Positions 30,131 to 38,627 of a DNA stretch of 38,627 nucleotides are shown here, in pieces; position 1 is the first letter of the stretch; each line of letters opens with the position of its first letter. Source of the DNA: Lentisphaeria bacterium (GTDB taxonomy: Bacteria; Verrucomicrobiota; Lentisphaeria; Victivallales; Victivallaceae). The stretch lies in assembly GCA_017508285.1 (NCBI GenBank), contig JAFVZG010000029.1, forward strand, positions 1 to 38,627, written 5' to 3'. The translations under genes and the position numbers were made by a program. The notes under the pieces are model-generated. The model was not told the origin of the DNA, searched no databases, and saw only the letters and a program-made list of their open reading frames with translations.

Positions 30131-31291
30131 ATGCAGGGAAACACCCGGCAGGCAGCGATATGGAACTATCTGCGGAATCTTGATTATCTGCAGCTGGTCA
30201 CCGTAGCACTCCTGCTGGGGATCGGTCTGATATTCATCCACTCGACCGGGATGCAGATCGACACCGAAGAGAGCCGGGGATTTTTCGGCAGGCAGTTGAT
30301 CTGGATCGGACTCGGATGCACGGCATATTTTCTGATATCTCTGCCGGATTACCGCTCATTCACCAGCCGGGTGGCGATGCTCGGCGGCTATGCACTGTCG
30401 GTGATCCTGTTGATCACGGTGCTTTTTTTCGGCTTGAAAATCTTTGGTGCCACCCGCTGGCTCAATATTTTCGGATTCCGGCTCCAACCGTCGGAACCGG
30501 CAAAACTGATGGTCATCTGCGCTCTGGCGGCGATACTTTCCGCCCCCCGTTTCTCCCGGAATAAAAATCTCTCGCTGTTTCTCTGCACCATGACGGTGCT
30601 TATCCCATTCATCCTCATTGCCATCGAACCGGATCTGGGCAGTGCATTAGTACTGCTGCCGATCTCCTGTGCCGTGATTTTCGCTTCCGGCATCAAATGG
30701 AAAATCGTGATCCTGGGGCTGGCGGCAGTAGCAGTGGGAGTGGCAGTGATTTTGCTGGATTGCTTCAGGGAAGAACCTGTACTGCTGCGGGGATATCAGC
30801 GTGACCGGATCAAGACTTTTCTCGATCCGGGGGCTGATTTGAGCAATCGCGGTTACAATGCCCATCAGGCAAAAATTGCCGTCGGTGCCGGCGGATATAC
30901 CGGCACCGGGATCGGCAAAGGGGTGCAGAATGAGTTGGGGTTTCTGCCCAGAACAGTCTCAAATAATGACTTCATCTTTTCAGTCATCGCCGAAGAGACC
31001 GGTTTCTGCGGAGTGACCGGAATACTCTTTTTGTATGCCATGCTGCTTTACAGCATTCTGCGGACAGCTTTCGTCACCTCCGGTTACGGCAGATATATTG
31101 CCGTGGGGGTGGCAACACTGATATTCTGTCACATATTCATCAATATCGGCATGAGTATCGGCATTGCTCCGGTGACCGGTTTGCCGCTGCCGCTGATAAG
31201 TTACGGCGGATCATTCATTCTCACCTCAATGATCACTCTGGGGCTGGTTCAGGCGGTCTACCGGCAGAATAAACTTGATCAACTAAAATAA
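30131..31291 (+). CDS. rodA: SEDS peptidoglycan glycosyltransferase, RodA type
   Basis: Inner-membrane polymerase of the elongasome, which joins lipid II into glycan strands with a class B PBP. The 386-residue protein has about ten hydrophobic helices. SEDS marks include GATRWLNIFGFRLQPSEPAKL, the catalytic-site EPDLGSALVLLP with its Asp, GYQRDRIKTFLDP, AVGAGGYTGTGIGKG, NDFIFSVIAEETGF, and the ending GLPLPLISYGGSF. RodA is preferred over FtsW because of the QPSEPAKL/FLDPG pattern and the lack of division genes; the partner PBP2 is not in the window. GGAG lies 8 nt before the ATG. Its stop lies 5 bp from the convergent terminase stop. Confidence 0.93.
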   Translation: MQGNTRQAAIWNYLRNLDYLQLVTVALLLGIGLIFIHSTGMQIDTEESRGFFGRQLIWIGLGCTAYFLISLPDYRSFTSRVAMLGGYALSVILLITVLFFGLKIFGATRWLNIFGFRLQPSEPAKLMVICALAAILSAPRFSRNKNLSLFLCTMTVLIPFILIAIEPDLGSALVLLPISCAVIFASGIKWKIVILGLAAVAVGVAVILLDCFREEPVLLRGYQRDRIKTFLDPGADLSNRGYNAHQAKIAVGAGGYTGTGIGKGVQNELGFLPRTVSNNDFIFSVIAEETGFCGVTGILFLYAMLLYSILRTAFVTSGYGRYIAVGVATLIFCHIFINIGMSIGIAPVTGLPLPLISYGGSFILTSMITLGLVQAVYRQNKLDQLK

Positions 31292-31296
31292 TCGAT

Positions 31297-32553
31297 TCAC
31301 ACCAGGATAAACCGGTCAGCGGCATTATATTTTGCCAATTCGGTCAAAGCCCAGACCATCGCATCCATCCGGTCGGGGGATGCGGTGAAATTTCCCGGTT
31401 TGCATGAACACATTTCGCTCTCCAATTCCGGAAAAACCCCAGCATGGTGAACGATACCTTTTTCATAAAATCCTGCCACCGGCACCGCGCGGGAGTACTT
31501 GTCTTTCACCGCCCTGACTTCGTGGAATCTGATATATGGATCTTCCGCAGCAAAGAGAGTCCCGATCAAATCCCCGCCGTTGTTGACCTCGACCACCACA
31601 TGAGCAGTGTGCCATTGCCGGGCAAGGGCGATCGTCTCACGCACCCACAACAATGGAGAAACCCGCATACTCCGGTCATCAAGGATATAATACTCGCCGT
31701 CTTCACCGATTCCGGCGGCGATGATCCCGGTCATATCGCCGGATTTGCCGGATGTGACCGCCGGATCGACCCCGACGACGACCCTTGCCATCGCCGGAAC
31801 TGCACTTACCCGGAAAGGGTCGATCATGGAGTAGTTCCACAATGCCCCGCGGTCATCATCCAGCCATTTTCCTTCGAGGAAACGCTCTTTTTCCCTTGCC
31901 GGCAGATTACAGAGAGTATTTTCGATGTATCCGGCAGGAAGATTTGCCCGGTTGGCATCGGGATTCATCTGCATTGCCCCGTAATTTTCCGGGAACGCAA
32001 ACTTCTTCCGGGTGACCGGATCGCACTTCTCCATGAATACCCGGTAACTCCAATGCCGTTTACCCGGCGGATTGCAGTCATAATATGCCCGGTTGACCAG
32101 AGGCGGGGAGTTCTGAGCCAACCGGGTGAGAGCCACCTGGATCCCGGAATAATCCAATTCGGAACACTCATTGAAGTAGATCGTGGCAAACTCCTTGCCC
32201 AGGATCTTATCGGCGCGTTCCCCGTCATCCAGACCGATCAGCCATATTTCCGAATGGTTGGCGAAACGGAAAAAGTTTTCCGTCCGGTTGAAGCGGCAGC
32301 GCACTTTCCCGCCGAAACGGGTGCGCAGAACTTTCGGCAGGGTATCCAGACCGATGGTATTGCGGGCACTGGCACAATAACGGCGGATCACAGCGTGACG
32401 GCTGCCGGGAGAGCGCAGAGCTCTTGCCACCAGCGAACAACACAACACAAAACTCTTACCGGAGCGGGAACCGCCGAAAAGCATGATATGCCGCGCCGGA
32501 GATGCCAGCAGAGACAACGCCTTGCGCTGAGTGGAAGTATACTCAAACATCAT
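31297..32553 (-). CDS. phage terminase large subunit
   Basis: ATPase-nuclease motor that packages DNA into the capsid through the portal. The complete 418-residue protein has Walker A GGSRSGKS (27-34), an adenine-motif region IRRYCASARNT, Walker B TIYFNE with Glu129, and a C-terminal RNase H-like nuclease with GVDPAV (Asp263), VVEVNNGG and DRMDAMVW (third acidic site near 402). All catalytic residues look intact, so no decay is visible. GGAG precedes the ATG. It is the last gene of the leftward capsid operon, an unusual place, and ends 5 bp from rodA. Confidence 0.93.
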   Translation of the reverse strand: MMFEYTSTQRKALSLLASPARHIMLFGGSRSGKSFVLCCSLVARALRSPGSRHAVIRRYCASARNTIGLDTLPKVLRTRFGGKVRCRFNRTENFFRFANHSEIWLIGLDDGERADKILGKEFATIYFNECSELDYSGIQVALTRLAQNSPPLVNRAYYDCNPPGKRHWSYRVFMEKCDPVTRKKFAFPENYGAMQMNPDANRANLPAGYIENTLCNLPAREKERFLEGKWLDDDRGALWNYSMIDPFRVSAVPAMARVVVGVDPAVTSGKSGDMTGIIAAGIGEDGEYYILDDRSMRVSPLLWVRETIALARQWHTAHVVVEVNNGGDLIGTLFAAEDPYIRFHEVRAVKDKYSRAVPVAGFYEKGIVHHAGVFPELESEMCSCKPGNFTASPDRMDAMVWALTELAKYNAADRFILV

Positions 32554-32571: not shown

Positions 32572-33069
32572 TTACGCATTGGCGGCAAGATGACGGAGAA
32601 AGGTGCGCCTGCCGGCAGAGATTTTCTCCATCACGCCTTGAAAAAGTGCTGCCAATTCCGGATGGATGGCGATGGAACGGAGGATCTTCCGGTGGATCGC
32701 CTGCCGGGAACAGCCGTGAATTTTTCCAAGCTGACGGATATTGGGTACTTTATCCCTGACCGATGGAGCGATTATCTCCCGGATCAAACTCAATGTGTAA
32801 TCATCCAGTTCCAGAAGATAACGGAAAAATGCGGCAAGAGCCGGAATGATCTCTGCATCTTTTTCCCCCTCTTCGTTACGGATTATCTCTTCATACCCGT
32901 TTCCTCCGGCGATGATCCCCTTTGCCGCTTCAAAACTCACCCAGTGCTTGCGCTTCTTCATGGAATTTTCGCTGGCAGTGTAGTAATTGCATGACTCCGT
33001 ATATTCGCATTGGCGGCAAATTTTTTCACTCTGCCGGTATTTTCCGTAACACTCAGGACAACTATTCAT
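32572..33069 (-). CDS. Cys-rich helix-turn-helix protein (possible small terminase or regulator)
   Basis: A 165-residue protein with an N-terminal cysteine cluster (Cys 4, 7, 18, 21, 27: CPEC ... CRQCEYTESC) that may bind zinc. Its C-terminal HTH (about residues 111-131, RQLGKIHGCSRQAIHRKI) is of the sigma/Mor type. ATG 33069 with GGAGGAG 6 nt upstream is the clear start, although the frame is open further upstream. It lies 18 bp before the large terminase, the position where a DNA-binding small terminase is often found. An alternative is a late transcription regulator. Confidence 0.7.
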   Translation of the reverse strand: MNSCPECYGKYRQSEKICRQCEYTESCNYYTASENSMKKRKHWVSFEAAKGIIAGGNGYEEIIRNEEGEKDAEIIPALAAFFRYLLELDDYTLSLIREIIAPSVRDKVPNIRQLGKIHGCSRQAIHRKILRSIAIHPELAALFQGVMEKISAGRRTFLRHLAANA

Positions 33070-33103
33070 AAAAGACTCCTCCATTGTCGATACTCTGTAA
33101 ACT

Positions 33104-33580
33104 TCAACCGCGCTGCAAACGCACGGAAGGAATAATATTTGTATTGTTTTCATCACCGCCGCTGTCACTGCTGCCGTCATCACTGCTGCCGGAACTGCCC
33201 GGATCATCATCCGGCTGATTACCCCCGGATTGAGCCGTTTTATTGAGCAGAGGAGCAAGCAATGCGGCGGCACGCTGACCTAAAAGTGACTTCTGGTCGC
33301 TGAACCGCAAACTTTCTCCGGCGGAATCAACGGCATTCACCCGGGTGTAACAACCGGTAAGATATTCCGGATTAAGCATCAGAAAAATCGTTTGTTCTGC
33401 GATGGCAGCATTAAAAAAATCCATCTCCTCACCGGTTTCCGGCAGATGAAATGCCACGGCGGCACGCACATCTCTTTCTGCGACGGCAACGATACCGCTG
33501 CGCTCTGCTTCGCTGAAACTGAAATAGCGTTCTTTCAGCGGGTGAACGAGAAAAAAATTATCGGTTTCGATCAAATCCAT
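33104..33580 (-). CDS. probable head completion/connector protein
   Basis: A 158-residue protein lying downstream of the capsid gene, where head-tail connector (gp6-like) proteins normally sit. The ordered part (about 1-115) ends SLLGQRAAALLAPLLNK; the remaining tail is rich in Asp, Gly and Ser (about 116-150) and probably disordered. The assignment rests on position and size, not on a motif. It is separated from the capsid gene by two hairpins. AGGGG precedes the ATG. Confidence 0.5.
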   Translation of the reverse strand: MDLIETDNFFLVHPLKERYFSFSEAERSGIVAVAERDVRAAVAFHLPETGEEMDFFNAAIAEQTIFLMLNPEYLTGCYTRVNAVDSAGESLRFSDQKSLLGQRAAALLAPLLNKTAQSGGNQPDDDPGSSGSSDDGSSDSGGDENNTNIIPSVRLQRG

Positions 33581-33649: not shown

Positions 33650-33673
33650 AATTTCCGGAATTTACCGGAAATT
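33650..33673 (-). terminator. perfect 9-bp hairpin at the capsid gene stop codon
   Basis: AATTTCCGG (33650-33658) and CCGGAAATT (33665-33673) are exact inverted repeats with a 6-nt loop, overlapping the capsid stop codon. It may stabilise the capsid mRNA or slow readthrough. Confidence 0.5.
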
Positions 33674-34829
33674 ATGCATTGCGGATCGCTGAGATCGCTT
33701 CGCTGCTGCTCAACAGATTTTTGATCCGGCAGCAACGCTGGGCGACATTGCGGAACTCAAAGGTCAATTCGCCGATCGCCACCCGGCGGATACCGTCAAA
33801 TCCCTGCGGAGTGGCATCCATGTCAGAGATCGCTCTGCCGGCAAGATTGACCAGCGCAAAGCAGCCGGTATCCACCACCCATGCGTCACCGTCAGGCATA
33901 TCCGGGTCAGCCATGATGGTCATTCCCTTGCCGTTGATCTCGTTGACGATGACGGCGACATAGGCACCGCGGCGGTCATCGGAACGCAGGATCTGGATAC
34001 GGTCACGGTATTCATTGGAAATTACCCGCGCCTGACCGGGAGAACAGAGGATCTGCATGGGATCACCGCCCTCACCGAGGATCGCCTGAGCGGCATCATT
34101 GATGATGAAACTATCCAATTGTTTTCTGCCGCCGTCGATCACCGGCACTCCGGCTTGCGTACCGAAAAAGTACAAGCCGCCGGCTTCGCCCCGGGTATTG
34201 ACGGAGGCTTCCACGCGTCTGCCGAAAAGTGCCACCCGGTTGAGGTCGCGGGCGAGGTCGGCGAGAGCGAAAGCGGTCTGACGGTTGAGCTGATTATCGG
34301 CATTGCCGTAAAGATTCACCGCCAGAGCCGTACCGGAAAGCACGATCTCTTTGCGGAAGATCTGCGTGGCATTCCACTGAGTGGTTGCCAGGTGGTAATT
34401 TTCTTCGCCGTCGCCGTTGGAAGTCCCTTCGGTCATCGGAGTTGAGACGATGATGAATTTACCGCCTTCAGCGGGCAGAGAAGCGGCATCGGTATAAGTT
34501 GAACCGTTGACTGCAGCGATCTCCAGCGTGGCTCCTTCGGCATCGACTCCGGTTACTTTGAAAAGAGCCGGATCATCCTTGAGCGCGACCAGAGTGCCGG
34601 TTTTCAATTTGGCGGCATCGGCACCCCCCAGCGAGATCCGGCTGCCGGAAACTGCCAGAGCGGTCACTCCGCGCCCGGTAAGCTGATCTTCCAGATATTC
34701 ATGTTTGGCACTGGAAGCATCCGGTGCACTGCGGAAGTTGGAAATGAAGCGCGGTTCATCCTTGATGACACTTGACATCACATCCGAAAGATCCCGTTTG
34801 CGATTGGCGAAACTGTAATTGTAAAGCAT
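33672..34829 (-). CDS. major capsid protein, SU10/DUF5309 type
   Basis: A 385-residue capsid subunit. The N-terminal FANRKRDLSDVMSSVIKDEPRFISNF pattern followed by HEYLEDQL matches the DUF5309/SU10-like group of HK97-fold capsid proteins, as do TQWNATQIFRKEIVLSGTA, DLARDLNRVALFGRR, the central FIINDAAQAILGEGGDP and the late GMTIMADPDMPDGDAWVVD. An inserted beta domain (about 60-130) resembles the small insertion domain of this group. The start is ATG 34829 with AAGGA upstream; a longer open frame upstream lacks a ribosome site. No maturation protease gene is seen. Confidence 0.87.
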   Translation of the reverse strand: MLYNYSFANRKRDLSDVMSSVIKDEPRFISNFRSAPDASSAKHEYLEDQLTGRGVTALAVSGSRISLGGADAAKLKTGTLVALKDDPALFKVTGVDAEGATLEIAAVNGSTYTDAASLPAEGGKFIIVSTPMTEGTSNGDGEENYHLATTQWNATQIFRKEIVLSGTALAVNLYGNADNQLNRQTAFALADLARDLNRVALFGRRVEASVNTRGEAGGLYFFGTQAGVPVIDGGRKQLDSFIINDAAQAILGEGGDPMQILCSPGQARVISNEYRDRIQILRSDDRRGAYVAVIVNEINGKGMTIMADPDMPDGDAWVVDTGCFALVNLAGRAISDMDATPQGFDGIRRVAIGELTFEFRNVAQRCCRIKNLLSSSEAISAIRNA

Positions 34830-34875: not shown

Positions 34876-35340
34876 TCAACGGTATCCGGCATCGGGCGCA
34901 CTGTCGATGGCAAGTGCGATCATGGCGATGCGGTCACCGGTAAAAGTTTCCGCCGGCCCGGCGGCAGAAACGGTTTTTTCACCGCTGCCGGAGTGACTTC
35001 CCGGCGTTATGCGGGCGGTGAAACACCCCGGAGAAGATGCTGCCAATTCAACTGCAAAGCGGCGCAATCCTTCGATATCACCGGGGGCGACATTCCGGCG
35101 TGCGGCGCAGAACCGGAAGTACTCCGGGTCAGTACAGCCGCTTTCGGCACAGACTTTTTCCAGAATATTCTGCTGCTGCAGCTGAATATACTTTTCCTGC
35201 AGTGCGGCATACTCTTTTGCCAGATCATCTGCGGCAGCGGCGATCACATTTTCCGGCGGTATTCCGGCAGCAGCACCGGCACCGTTTCCGGGAACCTCTT
35301 CATTTACCGTGCCAAGATCATCATTATTCACTTCACTCAT
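34876..35340 (-). CDS. scaffold-like protein between portal and capsid genes
   Basis: A 154-residue protein in the portal-capsid gap where scaffolding proteins are encoded. An acidic N-terminus (SEVNNDDLGTVNEEV) is followed by an Ala/Gly linker and a probable coiled coil (about 38-65, DDLAKEYAALQEKYIQLQQQ). The C-terminal half is Gly/Ser/Ala-rich. No protease motif is seen. AAGGAG is 8 nt before ATG 35340, which overlaps the portal stop by 8 bp. The role is inferred from position and helical content. Confidence 0.65.
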   Translation of the reverse strand: MSEVNNDDLGTVNEEVPGNGAGAAAGIPPENVIAAAADDLAKEYAALQEKYIQLQQQNILEKVCAESGCTDPEYFRFCAARRNVAPGDIEGLRRFAVELAASSPGCFTARITPGSHSGSGEKTVSAAGPAETFTGDRIAMIALAIDSAPDAGYR

Positions 35341-36724
35341 TATTACTCTCCTTTTCGATCTCTTTGATGATATTCTCCTTTTCCTGCAATCCGACATGAC
35401 CGATGCTGCCCAGTAATTCCAGAGCGGTTTTGCCGATGGCGCGGCGATAACCGTTACCGGCGGGAATTTCCGAAAGCTGCAGCAATCCGGCGATACCGGC
35501 GGCAAGATCGGTAACTGCGAAACGGCGGTTGTAATGCACTTCCGGCAGCGGCAGATCCAGATCGTAACGGCGCATCAGTTTCCACGCATCCAATTCCGCC
35601 TGCTCCAACAACTCTGCCCGGGAGGCAAGGAACTGACTGACATTCTGGAAATCCCACGCTTTGGATTCTGAACTCTGTGCCTCTTTGCTGTTGCCCTGCA
35701 CTGCCAGACCGACCACATCGTACAACTCCTGTTTCAGGTAACGGTTCTCTTCTCTGATGGTATCCGTTTCCACTCCGGAAGGGCTGATAAAGCGGCTGAT
35801 CCCCTTTTCCTCCACCGTTTCCACAATGGCGGCACTGCGGGCAACAGTGGCGGCGAAGTTGTCACTCTCTCCGGAACGCACCGCCAGTTTCTGGGCACTG
35901 CGGGCAAATGAGTCGGAAACCACCAGCATTCCGAACATCTGTTTGACAGTATTCATCTGCGCTTCGGATTCATTATTGAGGATCGCTTCGCTAATCCTGA
36001 CCACATCCTCGAACCAGTGATTTGCCGTCAGACCGAAACCATCGGGTTCAGTCACCGGTATCAGCGGCACACAACCGGTGGGATTGACTCCGGAACTGCT
36101 TTCCACGATGTTACCGGAAACATTTTCAAAGACCCGCCAGCTGTTCCGGTCATACAGCCGCCGCCGTTTCCGGCGTACCGGCGGAGTGAATGGATCGTTA
36201 TTCGCCCACTCCTCTTCTGCGACCAGAGCCCAGAGCAATCTGCCATCCCCGCCATACGCCCAATCGACCACATCCAGCGGAGACAATGCCCGCACATATG
36301 GTCTCAACCGGGCTTCTCTTGCTTCAAGCAAAGTGGGATTGCCGCTGAAACATGGCATTTCGACCTGAAGCCACGCTCTGCCGAAAACATTGAGCAAAGT
36401 TGACAACTGCCGCATGACCTCATTGGTGCGCAACCCGGTTCTGCTCCAATCCTCCACCAGTTGAGCATCGGCATTGCGCCGCACCGGTTCCACGCTCAAG
36501 GCGTACTGAGTGATCCGTCTGGCGATTGCCCGGGGATAGTTGAAGTAGTAGGCTCTGCGCCGCCTTTCAGCGAATTCCACATCGATCTCCGACACATGCC
36601 GGATCAACGCCTCCTCGATATACTCCCGCCCGCCGGAATAAGCCTCTGCGGAACGCCGCCAACGCTTTTCATTGGCACTGTATTGGGCATTTTTGCGGTA
36701 AAAAATATAATTTGTCACCATCAT
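35333..36724 (-). CDS. phage portal protein
   Basis: A 463-residue dodecameric-ring portal through which DNA is packaged. The N-terminus has the RRSAEAYSGGREYIEEAL and YYFNYPRAIARRITQYALS region typical of SPP1/DUF1073-like portals, a middle domain with PYVRALSPLDVVDWAYGG, and a long helical C-terminal part. Three start codons occur in a row (ATG ATG GTG at 36724, 36721, 36718); AGGAG is very close to the first, so initiation at the GTG is possible. It is preceded by a small-terminase-like gene and overlaps the scaffold gene. Confidence 0.85.
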   Translation of the reverse strand: MMVTNYIFYRKNAQYSANEKRWRRSAEAYSGGREYIEEALIRHVSEIDVEFAERRRRAYYFNYPRAIARRITQYALSVEPVRRNADAQLVEDWSRTGLRTNEVMRQLSTLLNVFGRAWLQVEMPCFSGNPTLLEAREARLRPYVRALSPLDVVDWAYGGDGRLLWALVAEEEWANNDPFTPPVRRKRRRLYDRNSWRVFENVSGNIVESSSGVNPTGCVPLIPVTEPDGFGLTANHWFEDVVRISEAILNNESEAQMNTVKQMFGMLVVSDSFARSAQKLAVRSGESDNFAATVARSAAIVETVEEKGISRFISPSGVETDTIREENRYLKQELYDVVGLAVQGNSKEAQSSESKAWDFQNVSQFLASRAELLEQAELDAWKLMRRYDLDLPLPEVHYNRRFAVTDLAAGIAGLLQLSEIPAGNGYRRAIGKTALELLGSIGHVGLQEKENIIKEIEKESNNE

Positions 36725-36745: not shown

Positions 36746-36991
36746 TCAAAGTAATTTTTCTTCATCGGTAAGGCTCTTATCCCCGCCGTCGTCTCCGGCT
36801 TGCGCCCGGATCTTTTTCCATCTTTCCGGAAAACGGTTTTCCAGCCAGTACATTGCCGCCCTCACATCCGGCGGCACCACTTTACCGGCGGCATCCTCAT
36901 ATCCGGTCGCCCGGCGGAAGAGTGCCTCTTCCACCTCTGCCAGCAACTTCTCATCTTTATTTTTTTCTGTGTCTGTTCCTCTCGTATCCAT
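36746..36991 (-). CDS. terminase small subunit-like protein, short
   Basis: An 81-residue protein. The segment ALFRRATGYEDAAGKVVPPD followed by AAMYWLENRFPERWK matches the C-terminal part of many phage small terminases (pattern A.GY ... PPDTTAA..WLKNR.P..W). The N-terminal DNA-binding helix-turn-helix normally found before it is absent, so the gene is short or relies on another protein, perhaps the HTH protein near the large terminase. CAGGAG is 8 nt before ATG 36991. It overlaps the preceding small gene by 35 bp. Confidence 0.65.
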   Translation of the reverse strand: MDTRGTDTEKNKDEKLLAEVEEALFRRATGYEDAAGKVVPPDVRAAMYWLENRFPERWKKIRAQAGDDGGDKSLTDEEKLL

Positions 36992-37154
36992 GTTGATCAC
37001 TCCTGCCTTTGGTGCTTATGCAACTTTGCACCGGATCGTCAACACAAATTTTCCCCAATATCGTTTCCAGCATCCGTTTCAAACCGGATAATGAATAAAC
37101 TCTGCCGCTCGGAGTGATCATAATATCCTTCACAGCACCGCTTGCAACATCCAT
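36957..37154 (-). CDS. small unknown protein, first gene of the leftward phage operon
   Basis: A 65-residue basic protein with SGRVYSLSGLKRMLETILGK and a Lys/Arg/His-rich end (YERNRHRKK). I do not recognise it. ATG 37154 has GGGAGGAAGG just upstream, which makes it a credible gene. It begins about 93 nt after the predicted transcription start of the leftward promoter, with one operator copy between. Confidence 0.55.
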   Translation of the reverse strand: MDVASGAVKDIMITPSGRVYSLSGLKRMLETILGKICVDDPVQSCISTKGRSDQHGYERNRHRKK

Positions 37155-37187: not shown

Positions 37188-37203
37188 ATTGCATGCATGC
37201 AAT
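37188..37203. promoter_or_regulatory. repressor operator O3
   Basis: A perfect 16-bp palindrome ATTGCATGCATGCAAT, inside the transcribed leader of the leftward operon, 34 bp before its first start codon. It shares the 14-bp core with two other copies nearby. A bound repressor here would act as a roadblock or in cooperative looping. Confidence 0.75.
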
Positions 37204-37253
37204 TCACCCGGGCAAAAAAATTCCGCCCGCCATTCAGCAGCCGACAAAAACTC

Positions 37254-37282
37254 AATATAATTGCATGCATGCAATTTTTCAA
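37254..37282 (-). promoter_or_regulatory. leftward promoter PL of the capsid operon
   Basis: Minus-strand TTGAAA (37277-37282), 17 bp, TATATT (37254-37259). The 17-bp spacer is filled by the operator palindrome, so repressor binding and RNA polymerase binding would be mutually exclusive. Confidence 0.85.
37259..37276. promoter_or_regulatory. repressor operator O2 inside PL
   Basis: A perfect 18-bp palindrome AATTGCATGCATGCAATT containing the same core as O3, centred 72 bp from it. It occupies the spacer of PL. Confidence 0.8.
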
Positions 37283-37313
37283 CCCTGTTTTCAGAATTTT
37301 TTCAAAAAAATTA

Positions 37314-37328
37314 CTTGCATGCAAGCAA
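37314..37328. promoter_or_regulatory. repressor operator O1 (one mismatch)
   Basis: TTGCATGCAAGCAA (37315-37328) differs from the 14-bp core at one position and contains the 12-bp palindrome CTTGCATGCAAG. Its first six bases are the -35 of the repressor promoter, which suggests autoregulation by a weaker site. Confidence 0.7.
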
Positions 37329-37343
37329 TCACTGATATATATT
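37315..37343 (+). promoter_or_regulatory. rightward promoter of the repressor gene
   Basis: TTGCAT (37315-37320), 17 bp, TATATT (37338-37343), about 38 bp before the repressor ATG. The -35 is embedded in operator O1. Confidence 0.8.
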
Positions 37344-37381
37344 ATATGCAAACGAAGATTTTAAGACAGGAGTATAAGAAA

Positions 37382-38287
37382 ATGCGGATAGACGATCATA
37401 TCATCCACGCTTTGCGTAAAGCAGTCACAGCAGCGGGAGATGCCAAAGAATTCGCCCTGCGCTGCGGCGTGAGTGCTTCCAATATTTCCCGCTATCTCAG
37501 CGGCAAAGTGCGGACGATCACCGATGAATCGTGGGAAAAACTCCTGCCTTTTCTGGAATTGACCCCGCAGAAACCGGCGGCCGGCACGATCGCCAACACT
37601 CCGGAATTGCGGCAATTCATTCTGGAAGCAATGGCGAAAAAATCACTCTCCACGCCGGATCAGCTGCGCCGTTTTATCGGTTACGGTCACAGCAGCTCAT
37701 TCAAACGGATCTTTGACGGGGAGTTGAATTGGTTTCCGGATGTGCTTTCGGCGGTATTCGATGCGCTGGAGTGCGATGCTTCACATGCCCCGCTTACGCC
37801 GGGGGAAAGAGAGATGCTCTCACCCGTCGGATTGTACCGCGATGGAGCAATGCTGGTGCGGCCGGTGCCGGTGGTGGAGTGGGCAAATGCCGCCAGTCAC
37901 CTTGAGATGCTTGAATCTGACAATGTGGTGATGGATCAATGGGATCCGGAAACCACGCCGACGGTACCGGTTCCTGCCGATGCCCGACGGGATACCCGGG
38001 CATTCCGGGTGAATGGGATATCCATGGAACCGAAGATCCTCGACGATGATATCGTACTGGTCGAACCGGTGGATAACACCGATGATATACCGGATAACAA
38101 GATCGTGGTGGTGCGCTTCAATGACCAATCGGATATACCGGAAAAGGTGGTATGCAAACGATTCCGCCGCCAGAACAACTCGCAACTGCTTCTGACCAGC
38201 GATAATCCGGAAGGGCACATAATCCCCTTTGACCGCAGCGATATCCTCTGGATCGGGATCGTGGTAAAAAAGATTTCGGAAATGTGA
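37382..38287 (+). CDS. LexA/CI-like phage repressor with peptidase S24 domain
   Basis: A 301-residue transcription repressor expected to hold the capsid operon off. An N-terminal XRE-type HTH (about 20-45, EFALRCGVSASNISRYLSGK) is followed by a similar second helical unit (about 90-125, LRRFIGYGHSSSFKRIFDGE), possibly a tandem HTH. The C-terminal S24 domain has the nucleophile Ser214 in GISMEP and a Lys near 255/259 (EKVVCKR). The autocleavage region VPVVEWANAAS lacks the usual Ala-Gly. ATG 37382 follows AGGAG with a 9-nt gap; earlier in-frame starts would run through the promoter. It is divergent from the virion genes and adjoins their operators. Confidence 0.9.
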   Translation: MRIDDHIIHALRKAVTAAGDAKEFALRCGVSASNISRYLSGKVRTITDESWEKLLPFLELTPQKPAAGTIANTPELRQFILEAMAKKSLSTPDQLRRFIGYGHSSSFKRIFDGELNWFPDVLSAVFDALECDASHAPLTPGEREMLSPVGLYRDGAMLVRPVPVVEWANAASHLEMLESDNVVMDQWDPETTPTVPVPADARRDTRAFRVNGISMEPKILDDDIVLVEPVDNTDDIPDNKIVVVRFNDQSDIPEKVVCKRFRRQNNSQLLLTSDNPEGHIIPFDRSDILWIGIVVKKISEM

Positions 38288-38597: not shown

Positions 38598-38620
38598 ATT
38601 ACGCTTCTTTTTGCGGGGGG
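38598..38620 (+). repeat. direct repeat, copy 2, at the contig edge
   Basis: ATTACGCTTCTTTTTGCGGG matches copy 1 at 38316-38340 and then dissolves into the terminal G run. Confidence 0.4.
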
Positions 38621-38627
38621 GGGGGGG

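Follow-up and report, generated by a model that had tools for sequence, protein, structure and literature searches.

The window (the whole stretch of 38,627 nucleotides that was analysed) carries near its right end a gene for an S24 repressor and a leftward operon of phage head and packaging genes. The two diverge from a 382-bp gap, which contains two exact TTGCATGCATGCAA sites and one site with a single mismatch. The elements of the gap and the repressor gene are listed below.

37189..37202, unstranded: putative operator O1, exact TTGCATGCATGCAA, in the leader of the leftward transcript, with ORF1 starting 34 nt further on; 16-bp palindrome at 37188-37203
37254..37282, minus strand: leftward promoter of the capsid operon, TTGAAA-17-TATATT, from the promoter scan
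37261..37274, unstranded: putative operator O2, exact TTGCATGCATGCAA, lying wholly between the -35 and the -10 of the leftward promoter (17-bp spacer); the perfect palindrome extends over 18 bp, 37259-37276
37297..37309, unstranded: conserved A-tract dyad TTTTTTCAAAAAA, halfway from O2 to O3, possibly an UP element or a bend
37315..37328, unstranded: putative operator O3, TTGCATGCAAGCAA, one mismatch and presumably weaker, its left half forming the -35 of the repressor promoter; perfect 12-bp palindrome at 37314-37325
37315..37343, plus strand: probable repressor promoter, TTGCAT-17-TATATT
37382..38287, plus strand: repressor, 301 aa, with an XRE-type HTH (residues ~5-57), a second XRE-like helical HTH domain (~74-129) and an S24 peptidase domain (~159-298)

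The layout agrees with the preliminary description, which had placed three such palindromes between repressor and capsid operon, one filling a promoter spacer, one supplying the -35 of the repressor's own promoter and one in the leftward leader. The leftward promoter consists of TTGAAA (37282-37277), a spacer of 17 bp (37276-37260) that holds all of O2, and TATATT (37259-37254). In the repressor promoter, TTGCAT (37315-37320, the left half of O3) is followed after 17 bp by TATATT (37338-37343), ahead of the ATG at 37382; this pair was picked out by eye and is absent from the promoter-scan list. O1 is situated some 45-60 nt into the transcript predicted from the leftward promoter. Three sites with at least 9 of 10 half-site matches are found in a region of 231 bp, whereas 2000 dinucleotide shuffles of these 231 bp gave 0.10 such sites on average and never more than 2. 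The genome search that had been proposed returned, with up to one mismatch in 1.87 Mb, only one site beyond O1-O3 (C86:9489, in or beside an AraC-type ORF).

The identification of the neighboring protein as a LexA/CI-like repressor is upheld by its matches to Pfam S24 and the PHROG transcriptional repressor family, together with weak HTH matches. The predicted structure (mean pLDDT 85.5) consists of two helical HTH-like domains and the S24 domain, and a fold search with it gives lambda repressor (CI) and LexA as the best solved-structure matches. A search of the solved structures by sequence gave no match.

The head and packaging operon

The operon reads leftward from ORF1 and stops 6 bp short of rodA, a host gene in convergent orientation.

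36957..37154, minus strand: ORF1, conserved small first gene, 65 aa, motif D-P-L-I-S..G-[KR]-[IV]-Y-S..G-L
36746..37000, minus strand: small terminase subunit (TerS), 84 aa, without the N-terminal HTH-like part of longer relatives
35333..36724, minus strand: portal protein, conserved
34876..35340, minus strand: probable scaffold protein, from position, composition and conservation
33672..34829, minus strand: major capsid protein (MCP), SU10-type family
33104..33580, minus strand: gp158, conserved protein after MCP, probably a head-completion or adaptor protein; no family match
32572..33072, minus strand: gp233, conserved Cys-rich HTH-like protein; no family match
31297..32553, minus strand: large terminase subunit (TerL); rodA follows at 30131-31291

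The conserved unit comprises the repressor, ORF1 and the seven operon genes, and in the relatives it is bordered at both ends by ordinary host genes that differ from one genome to another. ORF1, which starts 34 nt past O1 here, does so at 21-56 nt in most relatives. The N-terminal part of TerS is retained in several other clades of the genus. Neither the own operon nor those of the relatives contain integrase, excision/replication, lysis or tail genes, and the integrase and excision/replication module that would mark the ends of a prophage or a cf-PICI is absent. On its right side the own cassette can be read for 340 bp beyond the repressor, where the contig breaks off in 12 consecutive G (38616-38627), probably an artefact of assembly or sequencing. 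In other genera gp233 is encoded near the repressor paralogue too (L050, L058); it is possibly a late regulator.

Inheritance of the cassette and the remote tail genes

The comparison set consists of 34 genomes of the genus. Most of the relatives are MAGs in fragments, and the completeness of the own assembly is 71%, so that losses may be due to missing sequence. The surroundings of the repressor homologues were retrieved from the relatives, and their gene order and upstream sites were compared.

Sequence comparison indicates that the head operon is inherited vertically and is under purifying selection. Mantel correlations with host RodA are 0.86 for the portal, 0.85 for MCP and 0.77 for TerL, with permutation maxima of 0.34-0.39, and the portal tree agrees with the host RodA tree, the same subclades appearing in both. 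The reading frames are intact across the genus, and dN/dS of the cassette is 0.04-0.20 at dS 0.56-1.7. The chromosomal location of the cassette varies between relatives, and its orientation at rodA differs. Of 26 genomes from sister genera in the family, 20 have the portal, MCP and TerL, each gene occurring in precisely this set of genomes and usually at a locus of its own. Relatives of MCP in the species-genome search belong only to Lentisphaeria/Victivallales or to unnamed MAGs; cultured phage records reach an identity of about 28% at most, and matches in IMG/VR are limited to four contigs, of which one is a cassette of the present type, operators included. The setting, a capsid cassette without tail genes that is inherited vertically and sits at host loci, is not that of an ordinary phage lysis/lysogeny switch.

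Three Victivallaceae genomes contain tailed prophages with the same capsid and terminase families (G037:C10, L283; G039:C90, L286; G054:C40, L289). Each of the three has, besides its compact prophage, another set of portal, MCP and TerL genes at dispersed loci. The portal of the G037 prophage is sister to the portal of the genus cassette.

A protein resembling a tail tube is encoded away from the cassette in 26 of the 34 genus genomes, the own copy being at C34:331-762; it was not detected in six capsid-positive genomes. Its predicted structure matches the tail tubes of siphophages and of RcGTA (6tba among the matches). No TTGCA sites were found near the remote tail-tube loci, so the cassette repressor appears to be without direct control there. 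In some relatives a head-tail joining protein is encoded beside the tail tube. No tape measure, baseplate or lysis genes were identified in the genus set, and with these unaccounted for, the particle could be incomplete.

The operon has several properties of gene transfer agents (GTAs). Its phage-derived structural genes are vertically inherited under purifying selection, integration and replication genes are absent, and the genes are spread over several host loci. Loss of the N-terminal DNA-binding domain of TerS has been proposed as a mark of the GTA-type protein, RcGTA being an example (PMC6854486). The own 84-aa TerS has no specific DNA-binding domain, and several clades keep the N-terminal part. 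The head operon of these gut Lentisphaeria suggests a previously undescribed GTA-like particle in the phylum; a literature search found no report of a GTA or a domesticated phage in Lentisphaerota.

Capsid-forming phage satellites (cf-PICIs) carry head and packaging genes but no complete set of tail genes. The cassette has the same make-up, and one could imagine it to be an active mobile satellite with an ordinary CI switch that obtains its tails from a helper prophage. Related complete tailed prophages do exist in the family (G037, G039 and G054), and the variable location and orientation of the cassette would fit such an element. It is nevertheless unlikely, as the cassette is present in single copy with host genes directly at both ends, has no integrase, excision or replication genes, is strongly congruent with the host phylogeny, thus vertically inherited and not mobile, and is accompanied by a dedicated remote tail tube. 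About as improbable is a domesticated particle under the same repressor switch that serves a purpose other than gene transfer, for instance as a killing particle or a cargo compartment. Most of the tail parts were not found, and purifying selection shows usefulness only; the conservation of both terminase subunits and the portal nevertheless points to DNA packaging.

Operators across the genus and induction of the repressor

The operator conserved in the relatives is TTGCA-N4-TGCAA, with near-invariant half-sites and a variable center that is usually Y..R. By this comparison, the 14-bp perfect palindrome of the own genome is a special case of it. In almost all cassettes O2 is flanked by a -35 of the TTGAAA/TTGATA type and by a conserved -10, TATATT, and the leader copy O1 is present in all but one of the cassettes read through. 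O3, over the repressor -35, is a poorer match in most cassettes, exact in two, and reduced in five genomes with short repressors. The A-tract dyad is found between O2 and O3 in most cassettes. The spacing of O2 and O3 is 51-55 or 62-65 bp, i.e. near five or six turns, in few independent clades. Strict helical phasing of O1 and O2 was rejected, their distance being 63-196 bp. The earlier proposal of repression with weaker autoregulation stands in so far as O3 is usually the poorer site, as weaker autoregulation would lead one to expect.

Most genomes of the genus have one repressor homologue. Repressor and operators occur together in 26 of 26 genomes, and the four capsid-positive genomes that have no repressor homologue (G006, G009, G025 and G027) all keep the operon and lack the operators; these counts are not phylogenetically independent, the independent joint losses of repressor and operators numbering two. 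In G007 the repressor gene has moved to another contig (L048), and two operators remain at the operon (L307 8962-8975 and 9080-9093), which implies control in trans. Short repressors without the second HTH still have O2, and family paralogues with different N-terminal HTHs have no sites; the N-terminal HTH is thus probably the reader of the operator. No regulon outside the cassette was identified: in 20 genomes the number of TTGCA-N4-TGCAA sites is near that expected by chance, the centers of the further sites are mostly unlike those of real operators, and the remote sites were partly inspected. No shared palindrome was found at the dispersed capsid loci of the sister genera, where only GGTTGACAA-type -35 elements recur.

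Conservation across the genus and inheritance together with the repressor support the operator status and the promoter placement of the sites, and the predicted wiring, in which the repressor acts on these operators, is strongly supported by the genus comparison. That the palindromes are bound by a different regulator, the adjacent repressor acting elsewhere, is very unlikely in view of the 26 of 26 against 0 of 4 co-occurrence with its two independent joint losses, and of the association of the sites with the type of N-terminal HTH. That the cassette is what is left of a decaying prophage, repressor and operators being residual, an idea for which the reduced gene content and the truncated TerS of this clade might speak, is still less credible and was rejected on dN/dS, the frames being intact across the genus and the operators maintained together with the repressor.

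The repressor has the Ser214/Lys259 dyad, and Ala171-Ser172 occupies the aligned position of the cleavage site. The cleavage-like site is thus Ala-Ser and not Ala-Gly or Cys-Gly; several cassette-free paralogues have Ala-Gly. The catalytic serine is replaced in nine of 26 relatives, by glutamine in G011, G013, G014, G023 and G028, and together with the lysine in G003, G031, G018 and G029; the operators are nonetheless conserved. These relatives have thus kept the switch although their repressors should be incapable of self-cleavage, and SOS control cannot be general. The canonical lexA profile TIGR00498 gives the repressor 26.7 bits against a curated cut-off of 110.95, and none of the 34 genus genomes has a lexA match over this cut-off. 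The proposed link to DNA damage is doubtful, given the loss of the serine in these relatives and the Ala-Ser cleavage-like site. For the repressor of the own genome, SOS control is possible from its sequence; an antirepressor or another inducing signal would be equally plausible. Conserved operators accompany the S24 repressors with a replaced serine (Met, Gln or Glu) at loci L052-L055 and L061-L065.

Proposed mechanism and known systems

By combining these observations, it is possible to propose how the switch might work. The S24 repressor would bind TTGCA-N4-TGCAA by its N-terminal HTH. Occupied O2 would cover the spacer of the leftward promoter and thus keep the TerS-portal-scaffold-capsid-TerL operon off, and O1 in the leader may add an elongation block or cooperative binding. 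The weaker O3 would cover the -35 of the repressor's own promoter and tune the repressor level, possibly acting together with O2 bound on the same face of the DNA about five turns away. The operon would represent a domesticated phage head-and-packaging module, inherited vertically by the genus, which together with the remote tail-tube gene most likely forms a GTA-like particle; particle formation and DNA transfer, like binding, repression and the inducing signal, are inferences. We assign a probability of roughly 0.68 to this reading, an autoregulated repressor switch on a domesticated head-and-packaging operon that most likely builds a GTA-like particle.

The switch resembles those of the lambda/434-type CI in having an HTH with an autocleavage-type S24 domain (lambda repressor and LexA being the best structural matches), several palindromic operators in a divergent promoter region, and an expected autoregulation. 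It differs in that no cro, integrase or lytic genes are seen and the target is a vertically inherited head operon, in its two HTH domains, in the loss of the catalytic serine in two lineages, and in the operator inside the promoter spacer. The nearest functional analogue is RogA of Caulobacter, a repressor that keeps the chromosomal CcGTA cluster silent in its host via the activators GafYZ (PMC11150451), whereas the repressor described here probably acts directly on the promoter of the head operon and on its own.

RcGTA of Rhodobacter shares vertical inheritance, a TerS without the N-terminal DNA-binding domain and the tail-tube fold (6tba) with the present system, which has a SU10-type capsid and apparently a separate origin (PMC6854486, PMC11841831). 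Unlike RcGTA, it combines a compact head operon with an S24 repressor encoded in cis, and its tail genes lie outside the cluster. FpGTA of Faecalibacterium, also a gut bacterium, is similar in gene make-up: its ~10 kb operon encodes TerS without an obvious DNA-binding domain, TerL, portal, scaffold and capsid, and a second operon lies elsewhere (PMC12946183). FpGTA is podovirus-like and its packaging has been shown experimentally, whereas packaging by the Lentisphaeria system is a prediction; the word repressor does not occur in the text on FpGTA (PMC12946183).

Few GTAs are known, most of them from alphaproteobacteria, and how to recognize them from sequence is regarded as an open problem (PMC11841831, PMC12946183). 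A capsid set that a family of gut and environmental bacteria inherits vertically, and for which a repressor and its operator are defined, offers a testable handle. There is an even chance that this is the first GTA-like system in Lentisphaerota, with a cis-linked CI-type repressor directly on the head operon, conserved operators, dispersed tail parts, and two lineages whose repressor is unable to cleave itself, so that release there would need a signal other than RecA-driven cleavage.

The cultured Lentisphaerae strain zth2 releases unexplained hexagonal particles (PMC11361711). Its genome carries a dispersed set of portal, MCP and TerL, and the present cassette may, as a lead only, bear on these particles. 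The zth2 chromosome also contains two ORFs, far from the capsid genes, in which a tail-tube-like domain is fused to a tail-terminator-like domain (L327 9175-10071 and L328 8658-9554).
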